From: Streptomyces mobaraensis
Lineage (GTDB): Bacteria > Actinomycetota > Actinomycetes > Streptomycetales > Streptomycetaceae
Reading direction: 5' to 3'
Assembly (NCBI RefSeq): GCF_020099395.1
Contig: NZ_CP083590.1
Location: 4,774,001 to 4,838,000, forward strand
Length of the DNA stretch: 64,000 bases
The notes beneath the pieces were generated by a model. That model was not told where the DNA came from. It worked only from the letters and a program-made list of their open reading frames with translations, and searched no databases. Shown here one piece after another: positions 44,350 to 50,885 of this stretch. Position numbers and translations under genes: made by a program. Numbering within the stretch: position 1 is the first letter of the stretch; each line of letters begins with the position of its first letter.

Positions 44350-44931
44350 CTAGCACCCTGATCCGGTGGAAAGAAAATCCGTATGTTTGAGACCGGCGCG
44401 GGCGGTACGGACGCAGGACCAGAGCAGGACGTCGGGCCCCGGCAGCCACGGGTGCCGGACCTCCGGGGCGACCACCCAGCGCGAGGCCGGCGGCACCGGT
44501 TCCGTCCCGTCCGGCGGGTACGGCGGGGGGACCGTCACCGCGTCGCCCGTGCCCAGGCACAGCAGCGGCGGGACGGCCCGGGCCCACTCCTCCCAGCGCA
44601 GCAGCGCCGGCAGCCGCTGGGCCGTGCCGGGCGCCGCGAACAGCAGCAGCCGGCCCTGCTGGGCGGCGACCGGCCCGGAACCGGGCCCGTCCGACCACAG
44701 CCGGTCCAGCATCCGGCGGCCGAACAGGGACGGGACGCCGATCACGTCGAAGGCCCGCCCGCACGGCAGCAGCAGCGGGGTCCGCGGGTCGGCCGCCCAC
44801 AGGGCCAGCACGCTGCGGGGGAGCGGACTGGCCGAGGCGAGCCACTCGGCACCGGCGGGACGGACCGGCTCCCAGACGGCGGCCGGCTGCGGGAGGCGGG
44901 CGGGGTGCGGAACGCGTGGGCTGGAGTCCAT
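44350..44931 (-). CDS. PrimPol-N-like short protein
   Basis: 193 residues. The core LLLPCGRAFDVIGVPSLFGRRM, then GPVAAQQGRLLLFAAPGTAQRL and RWVVAPEVRHPWLPGPDVLLW, matches a Streptomyces family often annotated as bifunctional DNA primase/polymerase. It lacks the acidic catalytic triad expected of an active PrimPol and is too short. Its stop codon overlaps the putative promoter of tRNA-Lys copy 3. A distant paralog is encoded at 53604. Function unknown. Confidence 0.65.
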   Translation of the reverse strand: MDSSPRVPHPARLPQPAAVWEPVRPAGAEWLASASPLPRSVLALWAADPRTPLLLPCGRAFDVIGVPSLFGRRMLDRLWSDGPGSGPVAAQQGRLLLFAAPGTAQRLPALLRWEEWARAVPPLLCLGTGDAVTVPPPYPPDGTEPVPPASRWVVAPEVRHPWLPGPDVLLWSCVRTARAGLKHTDFLSTGSGC

Positions 44932-45088: not shown

Positions 45089-45460
45089 TCAGTCGGCCGT
45101 TCTGCCGCTGCGCAGCAGCTCACGGCCGAACTCCACCATCTTCTTGGCGTAGTCCTCGCTCCACTCGGCGCGCTCCGCGATCACGGCGGTGGGCAGCCGG
45201 TCGAACCGCCGGGGGTCGGCGAGCTGGGCCGCCGCCACGGCCTGGAACTCGATCGCGCGGTCGGCCGCCGCGCGGAAGGCCAGGGCCAGCTCCGTCGAGC
45301 GGGCCAACAGTTCGCGCGGGTCCTCGATCGACTCGAGGTCGAAGAAGTGCTCGGCCTCCGAGACGGCCTCAGGCGGCTCGAAGAGCAGCGGCGCGGGCCT
45401 GCGGCGGGGAGCCGCGCCACCGCCCGGACCGGGAGCCTGTTTCGGCTCGCACTCGCACAT
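45089..45460 (-). CDS. small CECEP protein, conserved hypothetical
   Basis: 123 residues. GGAGGT touches the ATG at 45466 directly, so the in-frame ATG at 45460, 6 bases away, is the better start (MCECEPKQAPGPGG). Two close cysteines at the N-terminus could bind a metal. The rest is helical: AEHFFDLESIEDPRELLARS, AFRAAADRAIEFQAVAAAQL, SEDYAKKMVEFGREL. It is on the same strand as the helicase operon, downstream of it. No family recognised. Confidence 0.65.
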   Translation of the reverse strand: MCECEPKQAPGPGGGAAPRRRPAPLLFEPPEAVSEAEHFFDLESIEDPRELLARSTELALAFRAAADRAIEFQAVAAAQLADPRRFDRLPTAVIAERAEWSEDYAKKMVEFGRELLRSGRTAD

Positions 45461-45588
45461 GTACATACCTCCAGGATCGTCTGCGCCGCCATCCATTGTC
45501 GCGCCGCGCGCAAGGGGGCCCGCTGTCGCAGCGGGTGCGGCGGTCCCGGGCCGGCGGTCCCGGGCCGCGGTCATCGGCCGCCCCCGGC

Positions 45589-45690
45589 GGGCGGGTGCCG
45601 GGGGCGGCGGTCAGGGTTTCCAGCGGACCCGGTGCTCGCTCAGATGCGTCAGGACCGCGAAATTCGCCTCCCACCCATCAGGGCTGTGAT
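45589..45690 (-). repeat. duplicated remnant of the helicase gene 3' end
   Basis: This segment is a second copy, offset by 140 bases, of the end of the helicase gene (matching about 45729-45830). On the minus strand it still reads PDGWEANFAVLTHLSEHRVRW and stops at 45611; the intact gene has PDGWEANFAVLTHLNEHRVR and stops at 45751. The remnant has no start of its own and is in another frame relative to the helicase. Confidence 0.85.
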
Positions 45691-45750
45691 CTTCGACCGC
45701 CTCCGGCGGCGTGCCGGACGCCGTCCGGCGGGCGGGTGCCGGGGCGGCGG

Positions 45751-47154
45751 TCAGGGTTTCCACCGGACCCGGTGTTCGTTCAGATGCGTGAGCACCGCGA
45801 AATTCGCCTCCCACCCGTCCGGGAACTTCACCGCCACCCCCAGCCGCACCGGCTCCGTCGACGGGTGCTCGTCCAGCAGGCGGTCCACGCCCGCGCGGCA
45901 CACCACGACGCAGGCGTGCCGGTGGCGTGAGGCCAGGACGCAGAGGCGGCCGGTCTCCAGGTGGAAGGCGGTGGCGTCGGGGCGGCCCGAGAGGGGGTGC
46001 AGGACGACGGTGACGTCGAACTCGCGGCCCTGGAGCCGGTTGGCCGTGTCCACCGTCACGCCGGTCACCCCGTGCTCCCCCAGCGCCGCGCGGACGGCCG
46101 CCGCCTGGTCCCGGTGGGCGGTGCCCACCGCGATCCGGGCCGCGGTGAGCGGGACGGGACCGGGGGCGCGCTCGCTGGTCAAGGCCGCGCCGCGGTCGAG
46201 CATCCGGCGTACCACCAGGGCCACCGCCTCGACGGCCTCCGGGTCCGTGCGCGGCACGTGCCGCTCGGGCAGCTCCAGCAGCCCCCAGCCGGACGCGGCG
46301 GCCTCGTCCAGCACCCGGTCCACCGCCGACCCGTCCTGCCGGACGCCGAAGGACATCAGCCGGTCGCCGTGGTCCGTGCCGCTGCGGAAGCGGGTGTACG
46401 GGTAGAACGCGTCCGACACCAGGCGCGCGGCGGACGCCGGCAGCCGCCAGGACACCGGGAGCCGGTGCTGCGGCAGCCCGGGGTTGTGGGCGAGGAGCGT
46501 GCTGACCGCGCTCACCGACGGGTCGTACGACAGGCCGGCCCACTGCGCCGTCCCCTCGGCGCCCACCACGCTGAACGGGTCGAGCTGGCCCGGGTCGCCG
46601 ACGAACAGGGCCCGGTCGAACAGGCCGGCCACGGCCAGCAGCGCGTCCGAGCGCATCTGGTACGCCTCGTCGACGATCGCCTGGCCCCAGGGCTCGGTCA
46701 CCTTGGTGTGCGCCCACTTCGCGGCGGTGGAGACGACCACGTCGAGACCGGCGAGGTCCGCGGCCTTCGTCGACGTGACGACCTGGTCGAGCCCGTCCAG
46801 CGCCGGGTCGTACGGCCGCGGGTCGCTGCTGTGCAGCCGGCCGACCGGCAGGTCGGCGTCCTCCTCGGCCAGCCGCAGCACCAGGTCGTCCACCTGGGCG
46901 TTGGTCTGCGCGACGACCATCAGCGGCCGGCCCGCCCGGGCCAGTTCCAGGGCGGCGCGGACGACCAGCGTGGACTTGCCGGCGCCGGGCGGCGAGTCGA
47001 CGACGACGCCGCGGTGCCGGCCGTCCAGCGTGTCGCGCAGGATGGCTCGCGTGGCCGCGGCGGCGGCCGCGGACGGGTCGAAGGCATGGGGCTCCCGCAC
47101 TGGCCCGGCGGGGGCCGGGATCGCTTTCTGGGTCACGGCAGGCTCCTGGGTCAT
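45751..47154 (-). CDS. SF1 (Upf1/Dna2-like) DNA helicase
   Basis: 467 residues. Motif I VDSPPGAGKST (52-62), motif Ia VVAQTNAQVDD, motif II AIVDEAYQ (DEA 162-164), motif III VGDPGQLDPF (185-194), motif IV SWRLPASAARL, motif V DTANRLQGREFDVTVVLHPL and motif VI ASRHRHACVVVC. DEA/GDPGQL is the Upf1/Dna2 (SF1B) pattern. No 1B/stalk insertion is evident, so it is compact. Its ATG overlaps the stop of the 522-residue gene (ATGA), and that gene in turn overlaps the nuclease gene; the three are probably co-translated and work together on DNA. Confidence 0.88.
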   Translation of the reverse strand: MTQEPAVTQKAIPAPAGPVREPHAFDPSAAAAAATRAILRDTLDGRHRGVVVDSPPGAGKSTLVVRAALELARAGRPLMVVAQTNAQVDDLVLRLAEEDADLPVGRLHSSDPRPYDPALDGLDQVVTSTKAADLAGLDVVVSTAAKWAHTKVTEPWGQAIVDEAYQMRSDALLAVAGLFDRALFVGDPGQLDPFSVVGAEGTAQWAGLSYDPSVSAVSTLLAHNPGLPQHRLPVSWRLPASAARLVSDAFYPYTRFRSGTDHGDRLMSFGVRQDGSAVDRVLDEAAASGWGLLELPERHVPRTDPEAVEAVALVVRRMLDRGAALTSERAPGPVPLTAARIAVGTAHRDQAAAVRAALGEHGVTGVTVDTANRLQGREFDVTVVLHPLSGRPDATAFHLETGRLCVLASRHRHACVVVCRAGVDRLLDEHPSTEPVRLGVAVKFPDGWEANFAVLTHLNEHRVRWKP

Positions 47155-48719
47155 AGCAGGTCCTCCGTGGTCACCGGATCGGGCTCCTCCGCCGCCGTGC
47201 CGGGCGGACCGCCGTGGGTCCAGGGCGTGCGCTCGGGCTCGGGCAGCTCGGGGCCGCCCCTGGGCGCGTGCTCGAACAGCGTCCAGCAGACCCGGTCACC
47301 GGGCGCGGGCACCGTCCCCTCGTCGGGGACCTTGCCGCGGCCCATGCCACCGGTCAGCCGGACCGTCAGCCCGGCCGGGCCGGCGGCCACGAACTCGGCG
47401 GGCTGCGACCGGCCGTCGGCCAGCACCCGGTGCACCCGCGCGCCCTCCTCCAGCAGCGGCGCGTCGTCCGTACGGACGGTGACCAGCGGCCGCGGGCGCG
47501 GCACCTTCGCCTCCGAGAGGGCCATGACCACCTCGGTGACCTCCCCGGCGAACGCCTCGCCGGCCAGCCGCCGCCCGGCCATGACCAGCGGATCGTCCAG
47601 CGCCTCCTGGGCGTCCAGCCGGGCCCGCGCGGTCTCCCGCGCGGCGAGCTTCCGCGCGGCGGTGACCGCGTCGTCCCGGCGCGGCTGCGGCGGCTCGCCG
47701 GCCCGCAGCCGGTCCCGGTGCCCGGTGTACGACCAGCGGTCGCGCTTCCAGCGCTCGGCGACCGAGGCGCCCTCGGGGAGGGCGCGCAGCAGGTCGACGC
47801 CGTGCCAGACGGCGTCCCAGGTGGGCCGCAGCTGTGAGAGGAGCAGCGTGCGGATCACCGTGTCGGCGGCCCGCAGCCCGGCGTGGCCCCGGCCGGTCTC
47901 CAGGACCGCCGTCCGGGCCCGGTCGTAGCGGGCGATGGCGGGGGCCAGCAGCTTGTTGTCGAAGGCGGGGTCGGTGGCCGGGCCGGCGGGCGGGTGGAGC
48001 AGCAGGCCGTCGGCGTCGCGCGCCAGCTCGGCGCGGCGGGCCGCCTCCGGGCCGGTGCTTCCCTCGGGCGGGTCGATCCAGGCGAGCAGCGCGCCCAGGT
48101 GCTGGTCCTCCAAGTGGCTCTGGCCGGTGGCCCAGTGCCGGGAGAGCGACTCGGTCATCGGGAGCAGGAGGGCACTGCCGGGGAGGCGGGCCCGCTCCCC
48201 GTAGTGGGTGAGCCAGCGGCCGAGCAGCGGGACGCGGGGCGGCGCCGGCCAGTCGGCCGCCGGGTCCTCCTCGGCGGTGCGCCGGAAGCGCATGGACCGG
48301 CCGAGCAGCCGGACGTACTCGGCCGCGGCCGGGCCGGGGACCAGCAACTGCGGGGCGTCGGCGCACAGCTCGGCCTCGACGGTCGTCCGGCGGCCGGTCG
48401 CCGGGTCGGTCTCCTTGCGCTCCTCGGTGACAGTGTCGTCCGCGTACCCCTCGACGTAGGGCAGGACGGCCTCGGCGAGCTCGGCCAGGAAGGCGAACCG
48501 CAGGGCGCGGTCGCGCGGCTGAGGGACCGTCAGCAGGTGGGGCGCGTCGCGGTCGGTGCCGACGAGGGCGCCGAGGGGCGCGCCCGTCTCACCGGCGGTG
48601 GTGAGCGGGACGAGCACGAGCGGGCGGTCCGACAGGTGCCGGTGGCGGACGGTGGCCAGGGGGCGGGCGCGGCCGGCGTGCAGCGCCTCCAGGCGGGCGA
48701 GGGAGGTGATCAGCGACAT
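47151..48719 (-). CDS. conserved protein of nuclease-helicase operon, unknown
   Basis: 522 residues from ATG 48719, overlapping the nuclease stop by 10 bases and the helicase start by 4. No motif I recognise. The N-terminal part has mixed strands (RPLATVRHRHLSDRPLVLVP). The middle is helical with LLLPMTESLSRHWATGQSHL and RWKRDRWSYTGHRDRL. The C-terminus looks like small beta barrels (VRTDDAPLLEEGARVHRVLA, GDRVCWTLFEHAP), such as the OB or 1B module of SF1B helicases. It may supply the DNA-binding parts missing from the compact helicase; that is inference. Confidence 0.75.
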   Translation of the reverse strand: MSLITSLARLEALHAGRARPLATVRHRHLSDRPLVLVPLTTAGETGAPLGALVGTDRDAPHLLTVPQPRDRALRFAFLAELAEAVLPYVEGYADDTVTEERKETDPATGRRTTVEAELCADAPQLLVPGPAAAEYVRLLGRSMRFRRTAEEDPAADWPAPPRVPLLGRWLTHYGERARLPGSALLLPMTESLSRHWATGQSHLEDQHLGALLAWIDPPEGSTGPEAARRAELARDADGLLLHPPAGPATDPAFDNKLLAPAIARYDRARTAVLETGRGHAGLRAADTVIRTLLLSQLRPTWDAVWHGVDLLRALPEGASVAERWKRDRWSYTGHRDRLRAGEPPQPRRDDAVTAARKLAARETARARLDAQEALDDPLVMAGRRLAGEAFAGEVTEVVMALSEAKVPRPRPLVTVRTDDAPLLEEGARVHRVLADGRSQPAEFVAAGPAGLTVRLTGGMGRGKVPDEGTVPAPGDRVCWTLFEHAPRGGPELPEPERTPWTHGGPPGTAAEEPDPVTTEDLL

Positions 48720-49939
48720 CCGGCCGTCCCTTCGGGTCCTTCCGGCTGCCCGGCGGCGGCCAGGGCCTCGGCGCGCAGGGCGGCGGCGCGGCGGAGGGCG
48801 GCGACGGCGGGATCGTCCTCGGACCCGTGGCACGGGCCCGACTCGCCCCCGGCCGCCGCGAGGACCTCCTCGACCGTGGTCAGCCCGCCGAGCCCGGAGC
48901 GCACGTTCCGCCCCAGGTGCCGGACGTCGCCCTCGGCGCGCGCCCGGTCGCGGCAGTGGAACGCCAGCTCGCAGGCGGCGAGGCAGTCCGGCGCGTACGC
49001 GGCGTCGACCGCCTCGACGGCGGCCGTCAGCTCCGCCGCCGGCCGGTCCGGGGCGAAGGAGGTGCCGGGCGGGAGGGCGGCGGCGATCTCCTCGACCCGG
49101 GTGAGCCGGCCGAGCTGGCGGTGGGTGGTGGCGCGCTGCTTGCGGAGGTCGAGGAGGGCGGCGGCCGGCAGGTTGGAGAAGTCCTTGGGGCAGACCAGCA
49201 GCGCTTCGTGGCGTACCCGGCCGTTCTCGGGGGCCGGCCCGGGAAGCCGCTCGGCCACCGTCTCCAGGGCGAGCGCGTACACCGCGGCCTGCCGGGCGGC
49301 GGCCCCGGCCTTGGCGGCGTCGGCCGCGCCGTCGATCATGGCGAAGGACTTGATCTCGACCACCGTCCAGGTGCCGTCCGGGTGCACGACGACGGCGTCC
49401 GGCTCCAGGTAGGCGGGGGTGCCGGCCACGGTGAGCGCCAGCATGGGGTGGTCGAGGAGCGCCCACCGGCCGGCGGCGGTGGCCTCCCGCAGGGCCAGGG
49501 CGGTGCGGGCCGTGCGGCCCTCGGGGCCGGCGGCGGAGAGGTCGGGCGCGTCCACGGCGTCCGGGGGCTCCGGCGCCTCTCCGGCGGGCAGCGCGGCGTG
49601 CAGCAGCCGGACGAGCTCCGTACCGCCGTCGGCCTTCACCCGGGCCTCGAAGGCATTGCCGCGCGCTATGGCGAACTGCGACTGCCCGAACGCGGCGGGT
49701 GTGCCGAGCGCCCGCGCGAGGGCCGCCTTGTCGACCCCGGCGCCGTCGAGCAGGGCGCGGCGGCGGCAGCCGGGGTTGGCGGCGAGGGCCGCCAGGGCGC
49801 GGGCGTCCAGCGGGCGCGGCGGGACGTCCGGCCCGCGCAGCTCAGCGAGCCGCAGCCGGAGCGCCGTCGGGCCGGCTGCCGCCGGCTCCGCCGCGGGACT
49901 GCCGGGGGATGTCCGAAGGGATCGAAGGGATGTGCTCAC
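48710..49939 (-). CDS. RecB/Cas4-like Fe-S nuclease
   Basis: 409 residues from GTG 49939. PD-(D/E)XK nuclease core: RGNAFEARV (93-101), Asp181 in LEPDAVVV, Glu195-x-Lys197 in WTVVEIKS, and QAAVYALAL (217-225, RecB motif QxxxY). Cys58 (NPGCRRRALLD) with Cys319-x3-Cys323-x5-Cys329 (DCLAACELAFHCRDRA) is the one-plus-three cysteine arrangement of the [4Fe-4S] clamp in Cas4, AddB and Dna2. No cas genes are near. It is first in an operon with the 522-residue protein and SF1 helicase. Its first 98 bases overlap the PAP2 gene in another frame. Confidence 0.85.
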   Translation of the reverse strand: MSTSLRSLRTSPGSPAAEPAAAGPTALRLRLAELRGPDVPPRPLDARALAALAANPGCRRRALLDGAGVDKAALARALGTPAAFGQSQFAIARGNAFEARVKADGGTELVRLLHAALPAGEAPEPPDAVDAPDLSAAGPEGRTARTALALREATAAGRWALLDHPMLALTVAGTPAYLEPDAVVVHPDGTWTVVEIKSFAMIDGAADAAKAGAAARQAAVYALALETVAERLPGPAPENGRVRHEALLVCPKDFSNLPAAALLDLRKQRATTHRQLGRLTRVEEIAAALPPGTSFAPDRPAAELTAAVEAVDAAYAPDCLAACELAFHCRDRARAEGDVRHLGRNVRSGLGGLTTVEEVLAAAGGESGPCHGSEDDPAVAALRRAAALRAEALAAAGQPEGPEGTAGCR

Positions 49940-50885
49940 TGCCGTCCGCCTCGCGCTGTCTCTCCGGCGCACCCGCCCGGCCGCCGCCGGCGGGCATGCC
50001 GGACGCGGTCGTGCGCGGGTGCGCAGTACGAGCCGAAGTCTCGCACCCGGCACTGACAATCGCCGGGCTCTCGGGCATTCCCGCAGGTCCGGCCGGGTCG
50101 AGCGAGGGCAGGGCGCGGGGCGCCCGGGCGCGGAGCCGCTCGCCGAGGCGCAGCGCGGGGCGGGTCAGCAGCAGGCCGACGCCCATGACGGCGGCACCGG
50201 CGACGGCGTCCAGGAAGTAGTGGTTGGCCGTGCCCATGACCACGAGGGTGATGGTCAGGGGGTAGGCGACGCCGAGGACCTTCGCCCAGGTGCCGCGCCC
50301 GTGGCGCCACAGCATGACGCCGCACCACAGCGCCCAGCCCACGTGCAGGCTCGGCATGGCCGCGTACTGGTTGGTGAGCCCGCCGAGACCGCGCGGGGCG
50401 CTGGCGTCACCGCCCCACCATCCGTACGACGAGTACTGGTGCATGGTGTCGATGAAGCCGTAGCCGTCCGGGAGGAGGCGGGGCGGGCAGGTGGGCAGCA
50501 GGGTGAAGCCCACCAGGCCGATGAGGGTGGAGAGCATCAGCCAGGTCCGGCCGCTGCGGTAGTGCTCGGAGTGGCGCCGGAAGACCCACACCAGGATGGC
50601 CGGGGTGACCACGTAGTGCAGCGAGGCGTACACGAAGTCCGCGGGCACGCCGAGGATGGCGTGGTCCGTGAACAGGCGGTTGAGGGGGTGTTCGAAATTT
50701 ATTCGAAACTGCTTCTCGATATCGAGTATCGACACACCGTGATCGACCGCCGACTGCACATCGCCGCGGACCAGCAGGCGGCCCGCCGAGTACAGCGCGT
50801 AGACGACGGCGATCAGTGGCAGTTCGGTCCACCAGCGCGGCCGCTTCCCGAGTGGTGCGGTGCGGTACATCCGGACGCTCTCCAT
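49842..50885 (-). CDS. PAP2 family membrane phosphatase/transferase
   Basis: 347 residues from ATG 50885. About six membrane helices. The PAP2 signature is split over LPTCPPRLLPDGYG, QYAAMPSLHVGWA (catalytic-type His) and MGTANHYFLDAVAG, as in inositol phosphorylceramide synthase-like members. The C-terminal 90 residues are polar and disordered. It would act on lipid phosphates. A short AT-rich, palindrome-containing stretch lies in its 5' third (50691-50726). Confidence 0.88.
   Translation of the reverse strand: MESVRMYRTAPLGKRPRWWTELPLIAVVYALYSAGRLLVRGDVQSAVDHGVSILDIEKQFRINFEHPLNRLFTDHAILGVPADFVYASLHYVVTPAILVWVFRRHSEHYRSGRTWLMLSTLIGLVGFTLLPTCPPRLLPDGYGFIDTMHQYSSYGWWGGDASAPRGLGGLTNQYAAMPSLHVGWALWCGVMLWRHGRGTWAKVLGVAYPLTITLVVMGTANHYFLDAVAGAAVMGVGLLLTRPALRLGERLRARAPRALPSLDPAGPAGMPESPAIVSAGCETSARTAHPRTTASGMPAGGGRAGAPERQREADGSEHIPSIPSDIPRQSRGGAGGSRPDGAPAAAR

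Follow-up and report, generated by a model that had tools for sequence, protein, structure and literature searches.

The window analyzed here is a 64,000-nucleotide stretch of Streptomyces mobaraensis DNA (contig NZ_CP083590.1, positions 4,774,001 to 4,838,000), and its minus strand carries an operon of three overlapping open reading frames (ORFs) encoding a nuclease (nuc), a middle protein (mid) and a helicase (hel). We propose, with a probability of roughly 0.7, that this operon is an actinobacterial split form of a Dna2-like machine for processing DNA ends or flaps, that a variant of it, often subtelomeric, is coupled to Mre11-Rad50, and that the core copy serves repair. The protein families, the folds (that of mid with moderate strength), the order of the domains, the co-occurrence of the genes, their fusions, a promoter element and the linkage to SbcCD (Mre11-Rad50) were all established by computation.

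Domain order of nuc, mid and hel

The nuc gene (48710..49939; this and all features below are on the minus strand) encodes 409 amino acids from a GTG start, mid (47151..48719) encodes 522 from an ATG and hel (45751..47154) encodes 467, also from an ATG, with an overlap of 10 bases between nuc and mid and of 4 bases between mid and hel. A preliminary description of the sequence had reported these coordinates, lengths and overlaps, and our re-check reproduced them exactly. The first two products are mostly annotated as 'hypothetical protein' in databases, and our searches of open-licence papers found no prior account of a nuc-mid-hel operon.

The structure predicted for nuc has the RecB/Cas4 fold, pointing to a RecB-family PD-(D/E)XK domain such as that of Dna2. 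Regarding family models, neither Pfam nor NCBIfam returned a family over the cut-off for nuc, PADLOC likewise gave no match, and comparing nuc and mid with PDB sequences yielded short-stretch matches to engineered proteins, or marginal ones. In an alignment of 59 nuc sequences, C58, C319, C323, C329, K197 and Y221 show no variation, and H164, D181, E195 and Q217 almost none, a degree of conservation which argues that the motifs are not due to chance. D181, E195 and K197 make up nuclease motifs II-III (49349..49399), and H164 is presumably the motif I histidine of the RecB family. Except for H164, all of these residues had been called in the preliminary description, and every call was confirmed. 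Across 144 nuclease ORFs (from 145 loci, one ORF of less than 250 amino acids being removed and some genomes counted twice), the C319-x3-C323-x5-C329 set (48953..48985) is kept in all 144 and C58 (codon at 49766..49768) in 143, the exception reading X. This four-cysteine set is like that of Dna2; C58 would be the first putative iron-sulfur (Fe-S) ligand and the other cysteines the remaining three, and nuc would bind an Fe-S cluster. The N-terminal ~25 residues are unconserved, have low model confidence and probably lie outside the fold; since, in addition, a promoter element described below falls anywhere from -119 to +16 when relatives are measured from their projected start, the choice of start codon is uncertain.

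For mid, Pfam and NCBIfam gave no match over the cut-off, in agreement with its earlier placement in no known family. Its sequence shares 97% identity with a mid protein recorded for S. mobaraensis. Fold comparison matched residues 349-497 (47229..47675), a predicted stalk helix and beta-barrel, to the 1B-domain segment of IGHMBP2, Dna2, senataxin and Upf1, while residues 31-370 (47610..48629) resemble, with moderate confidence, the exonuclease region of family B DNA polymerases, with no recognisable catalytic motif I. The hel protein has an SF1B Upf1-like helicase core. It matches Pfam AAA_11, AAA_12 and AAA_30, with UvrD_C_2 merely at an E-value of 0.14, and a search of its profile against solved structures placed DNA2 on top (E 8e-12, aligned from DNA2 residue ~642), IGHMBP2 scoring 5e-11. 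All 119 hel ORFs retain the lysine of Walker A and the DE of motif II, and the DEA (residues 162-164) and GDPGQL (residues 186-191) motifs reported previously were both found. An AdnAB-like identity was rejected because the motor is SF1B and not UvrD-like. As only ~50 residues precede the Walker A motif, hel has no room for a stalk and 1B module of its own.

Taken in gene order, nuc corresponds to Dna2 residues 20-419, the C-terminus of mid to residues 456-569 and hel to residue 642 onward. Since the nuc fold, the 1B-like C-terminus of mid and the DNA2 match of hel follow the order found in Dna2, the operon is collinear with this enzyme, with a stalk and 1B barrel predicted, at moderate strength, between nuclease and motor. 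The single-polypeptide layout of Dna2 is replaced here by three ORFs, and no three-part fusion was present among the 10 long proteins returned by a search with the joined nuc, mid and hel sequences. Five of these ten (P0244-P0248) are complete mid-hel fusions of ~930 amino acids, and locus L200 shows a mid-hel fusion in its genomic context, with nuc, SbcCD and an additional gene (X281, described below) alongside. P0244, P0247, P0248 and L200 form one clade in the mid tree (P0245 and P0246 are outside the tree), so the complete fusions probably derive from a single event. P0249 (789 amino acids) joins mid to part of hel; this partial fusion may be a read-through, and a second fusion event is possible. 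The other four (P0250-P0253) were rejected as fusions: P0250 is a single mid with long insertions, P0251, which joins mid to part of hel, is scrambled in places, and P0252 and P0253 look chimeric, the N-terminal part of hel being joined to an SbcC-like or GmrSD-type protein, possibly as an assembly or recombination artefact. A 1B module in mid, which the preliminary description had suggested looking for, is supported by the fold comparison and by the natural mid-hel fusions. To our knowledge, a 1B domain of an SF1B helicase supplied in trans would be a new arrangement.

Co-occurrence of the three genes and the proposed machine

Among 296 Actinomycetes genomes, 48 carry mid, and the same 48 carry hel (E<=1e-30) and nuc. 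We discounted one further nuc match, in G222 (C9:24939-25097), a weak 53-residue similarity (E=7e-5) to the C-terminal part of nuc in a genome with neither mid nor hel. In 46 of the 48 genomes hel lies at most 2 kb from mid (G201 being counted through a mid tail on its hel contig), and in G149 and G240 they are 36 and 49 kb apart. The nuc-mid-hel order was found in 30 of the 31 loci of a first synteny table, where the window's own locus appears as L002, one of the 30, and as L001, which ends before hel. In a set of loci from named genomes (the best 80 of at least 500 confirmed loci), hel is located beside nuc-mid or past one inserted gene in 56 cases, and 24 are without an adjacent hel, two of these having no sequence past mid. 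Loss of hel in Micromonospora was ruled out in the 12 genomes tested (G149, G240 and 10 of these 24 loci), as each of them encodes a strong hel elsewhere; three have a second strong hel, which in two is part of a complete operon (L182 and L183). Wherever the survey found the three genes, they were adjacent or at least present in the same genome. In a phylum-wide sample, 11 of 296 genomes were positive, all in the one class.

One could argue that nuc, mid and hel are not one machine and that they are co-transcribed for regulation only, given that hel is 36, 49 and 108 kb away from nuc-mid in Micromonospora G149, G240 and G331, the three genomes in which this distance was measurable. However, the exact co-occurrence in 48 genomes, the natural mid-hel fusions and the fact that hel lacks the very domain that mid resembles make this explanation highly improbable. 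In the split Dna2-like machine that we favor, the three proteins would form one particle, with the stalk and 1B barrel of mid completing the hel motor and the second domain of mid bridging to the nuclease. The complex would bind an exposed single strand, which the motor would pull and feed to nuc for cutting, and the outcome would be the processing of DNA ends or flaps. We infer its assembly, polarity, substrate, activity and inducibility. The preliminary description had read the three chains as an end-processing, repair or defence complex, and our analysis supports that reading.

The core copy and its divergent relatives

As mid is present in 44 of 45 Streptomyces and the eight type-A loci with sufficient flank share their flanking genes, we consider the window copy, which is of this type, an old core locus. 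A conserved element ahead of nuc, TTGTCAGTGCCGGGTGCGAGACT (50037..50059), resembles the UV-inducible recA promoter of S. rimosus, TTGTCAGTGGC-N6-TAGggT (Ahel et al. 2002, as quoted in PMC2375139): the spacing is identical and the first T of the -10 is replaced by C or G. Near the nuc start, TTGTCAGTG(G/C)CGG(A/G)TGC(C/G)AGACTTC is near-invariant in 26 of 29 distinct type-A genomes, with 21-22 of 25 element positions matched in the remaining three, and TGTCRGTG is found there in 35 of 40 type-A loci versus 3 of 146 other loci (duplicates included). In the whole genome, a relaxed pattern of the element gave one exact and six one-mismatch sites, while the reversed control gave none. These observations would fit a core Streptomyces copy that is induced by DNA damage and serves repair. 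Two points weigh against such induction and keep it a supported guess: the six other sites are not clearly at repair genes (by eye, one precedes a NADAR-like gene and another an AlkD-like gene), and, according to PMC9380542, S. venezuelae does not conserve the PafBC motif of mycobacteria.

Many relatives carry a fourth gene upstream, X281 (~280 amino acids), for which no family model scored over the cut-off and which we used as the marker of divergent, type-B copies. Grouping the 145 loci (some genomes appear twice, and the labels depend on flank length) gave 41 with an SbcD-like gene nearby, 54 with X281 only and 50 with neither; among the named-genome loci, SbcD is present in 17 of 80. The preliminary description had seen no cas or rec genes nearby. 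The first part stands for the eight window neighbors scanned with Pfam, none of which is Cas-like (no dedicated cas1/cas2 search was made), and we set aside a CRISPR role with that same limit; the second part does not extend to relatives, where sbcD-sbcC often adjoins the operon. The SbcD-SbcC genes lie upstream of the operon, in divergent orientation, in Streptomyces, Streptacidiphilus, Catenulispora and Nocardia; in Amycolatopsis, Kibdelosporangium and some Micromonospora they follow hel on the same strand. A Lamassu identity of the linked SMC protein was rejected, as it scores worse with LmuB (4e-17) than with mad3 (1e-23) and is partnered by SbcD, which makes it SbcC-like. In a tree of 112 mid rows (Micromonospora and Actinomadura being thinned), SbcCD-linked rows occupy at least three places parted by starred branches: a Streptomyces/Nocardia group and its sister, an Amycolatopsis group, and L131. 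L089, in which X281 is damaged and no SbcD was found, and the separate labelling of fusion rows both inflate the computed number of forced changes, at least six.

The active-site set D181, E195, K197, Q217 and Y221 is retained in all 41 SbcCD-linked loci. Eleven of the 144 nuclease ORFs lack D181, E195 or K197. Eight of them belong to Streptomyces X281-only loci (L017, L019 and L193-L198), internal copies that form one clade in the tree; in these, H164 and K197 are both gone, accompanied either by E195 or by D181 and Y221. The other three (L077, L156 and L158) come from Streptosporangiaceae or an unnamed relative. The four cysteines are intact in every one of the eleven, so these residues seem to matter beyond catalysis.

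In the variant loci, a dedicated SbcCD would first open blocked or hairpin ends and hand them on to the nuc-mid-hel complex, a division of labor that would parallel that of eukaryotic Mre11-Rad50 and Dna2. A broader version of this proposal, which we hold tentatively, is an actinobacterial counterpart of the eukaryotic Mre11-Rad50/Dna2 resection pathway. X281, nuc, mid, hel, sbcD and sbcC would make up one unit of six genes, in which a three-chain Dna2 would act with a dedicated Mre11-Rad50. In Streptomyces this unit, placed near linear chromosome ends (in terminal repeats in two genomes) and on plasmids and sometimes coupled to Wadjet, would police or process replicon ends, and the core, damage-inducible three-gene form would provide general repair beside AdnAB.

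The Wadjet genes jetABCD follow hel in L082, L083, L085-L090 and G048, amounting to 6 of the 80 named-genome loci (PADLOC type I Wadjet matches were tested on L083, and Pfam was also used for the jet genes). A GmrSD_N gene (L099, 11622-13919) and a RhuM gene (L100, 11506-12555) are inserted between mid and hel in Micromonospora, and L099 has HsdM-like genes after hel, as judged by eye; the mid-hel gap of L102 has the same size as that of L099. Together with the occurrence of SbcCD-linked copies close to chromosome ends and on two plasmid records, the patchy distribution (X281, at E<=1e-20, in 23 of 295 Streptomyces) and the enrichment of Wadjet toward Streptomyces ends stated in PMC10482375, these neighbors would suit a system devoted primarily to anti-phage or anti-plasmid defence, degrading foreign DNA ends, with the core copy as a domesticated version. 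We find this rather unlikely, because 44 of 45 Streptomyces have the core copy, which lies in a conserved neighborhood and carries a recA-like promoter element. Besides, none of 77 nuc and 17 mid pattern matches in viral contigs was confirmed and no mid was found in phage records, on which grounds we also rejected a phage origin. Neither nuc, mid nor X281 matches a PADLOC 2023 model and hel gives weak helicase cross-matches (3.8e-8 at best for the window protein), and identity with a known defence system was rejected too.

Regarding the location of the divergent copies, read in 21 of the 23 X281 genomes (all but G471 and G544, short draft contigs not being counted), four of five single-contig Streptomyces genomes have SbcCD-linked copies within 25 kb of a chromosome end. 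In G385 and G459 they lie 24 kb from both ends, as inverted copies that show no difference in the 19.8 kb over which they were compared; the distance is 4.7 kb in G425, ~18 kb in G048 (from another sample) and, exceptionally, ~523 kb in G440. Of the plasmid copies, that of L083, a linear plasmid, is 13 kb from the end of its record, and that of L082, which is listed as circular, 4 kb. For each of the X281-only copies in G346, G372, G524, G591, G576 and G507, the distance to a contig end exceeds 1 Mb, G372 and G507 comprising more than one contig. The terminal SbcCD-linked copies, set against these six internal ones, could mean that type-B units are telomere-processing modules of linear replicons, which would open or repair protein-capped ends and hence be carried in terminal repeats. 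This seems improbable to us, since the G440 copy and the core copy are distant from the ends, subtelomeres gather horizontally transferred genes in any case, Nocardia, Amycolatopsis, Kibdelosporangium and Micromonospora have SbcCD-linked copies too, and the sbcCD genes of L082 are broken into pieces. The terminal placement may in part be a general subtelomeric enrichment, as PMC10482375 reports that not only Wadjet but also Lamassu is enriched toward the ends of Streptomyces chromosomes.

The eight window neighbors scanned comprise GGDEF-EAL, short Prim-Pol-like, PAP2, histidine phosphatase, TPR and RNase_T exonuclease proteins, plus two with no Pfam match. Downstream of the operon lie the Prim-Pol-like gene (44350..44931, Pfam E 1.6e-6) and a gene for a 161-amino-acid protein (45089..45574), with relatives in 6 and 7, respectively, of the eight type-A loci with long flank. 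In many Micromonospora loci the surroundings of nuc-mid include a relative of the GGDEF-EAL gene; as EAL genes are common, this is no more than a hint that the loci share an ancestral position. The last ~23 codons of hel and the bases that follow (45715-45823) are repeated in tandem 140 bp downstream (45575..45683). Similar repeats occur in L025 (four copies), L029 (three, at 169 bp spacing) and L031 (two), and more than one match to the tail peptide was seen in 10 of 160 loci, from eight distinct genomes, all of type A (the second match in L010 is weak).

Comparison with known systems

Cas4, including the Argonaute-associated Cas4 (ACE1), shares the nuclease fold with nuc, and the Cas4 cysteine pattern is like that of nuc. 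The partners differ, as does the C-x3-C-x5-C spacing of nuc, and no CRISPR or Argonaute context was seen, within the limit on cas genes given above. NurA and HerA are not known to be related to nuc and hel. The archaeal Mre11-Rad50-HerA-NurA system resembles the operon in that Mre11-Rad50 resects DNA ends together with a nuclease and a motor protein. AdnAB, AddAB and RecBCD have in common with the operon the nuclease fold and, in general terms, a nuclease paired with a helicase. The motors of these enzymes are SF1A helicases of the UvrD-like kind, fused to the nuclease, whereas hel is a separate chain that matches AAA_11/AAA_12. The genome has three PF12705 loci elsewhere, separate from the operon, and PMC5869714 names AdnAB as the main helicase-nuclease in Streptomyces.

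The likeness to IGHMBP2, Upf1 and senataxin lies in the helicase motifs and in the stalk and 1B barrel, but here the 1B domain is on a separate protein (joined to the motor in some Streptomyces) and a nuclease partner is added. The recA-like promoter, the recurrent Mre11-Rad50 neighbors and the Dna2 order suggest a machine so far unrecognised in bacteria. Dna2 is a central eukaryotic repair enzyme; if our proposal is true, an operon that is near-universal in Streptomyces gives bacteria a resection route of eukaryotic design, and the coexistence of linear bacterial chromosomes with end-attacking nucleases becomes testable. By comparison with Dna2, the operon has a Cas4-like four-cysteine nuclease, a stalk and 1B barrel and an SF1B Upf1-like motor in the same order, but in three chains instead of one, with low sequence identity and with an extra polymerase-exonuclease-like domain in mid.

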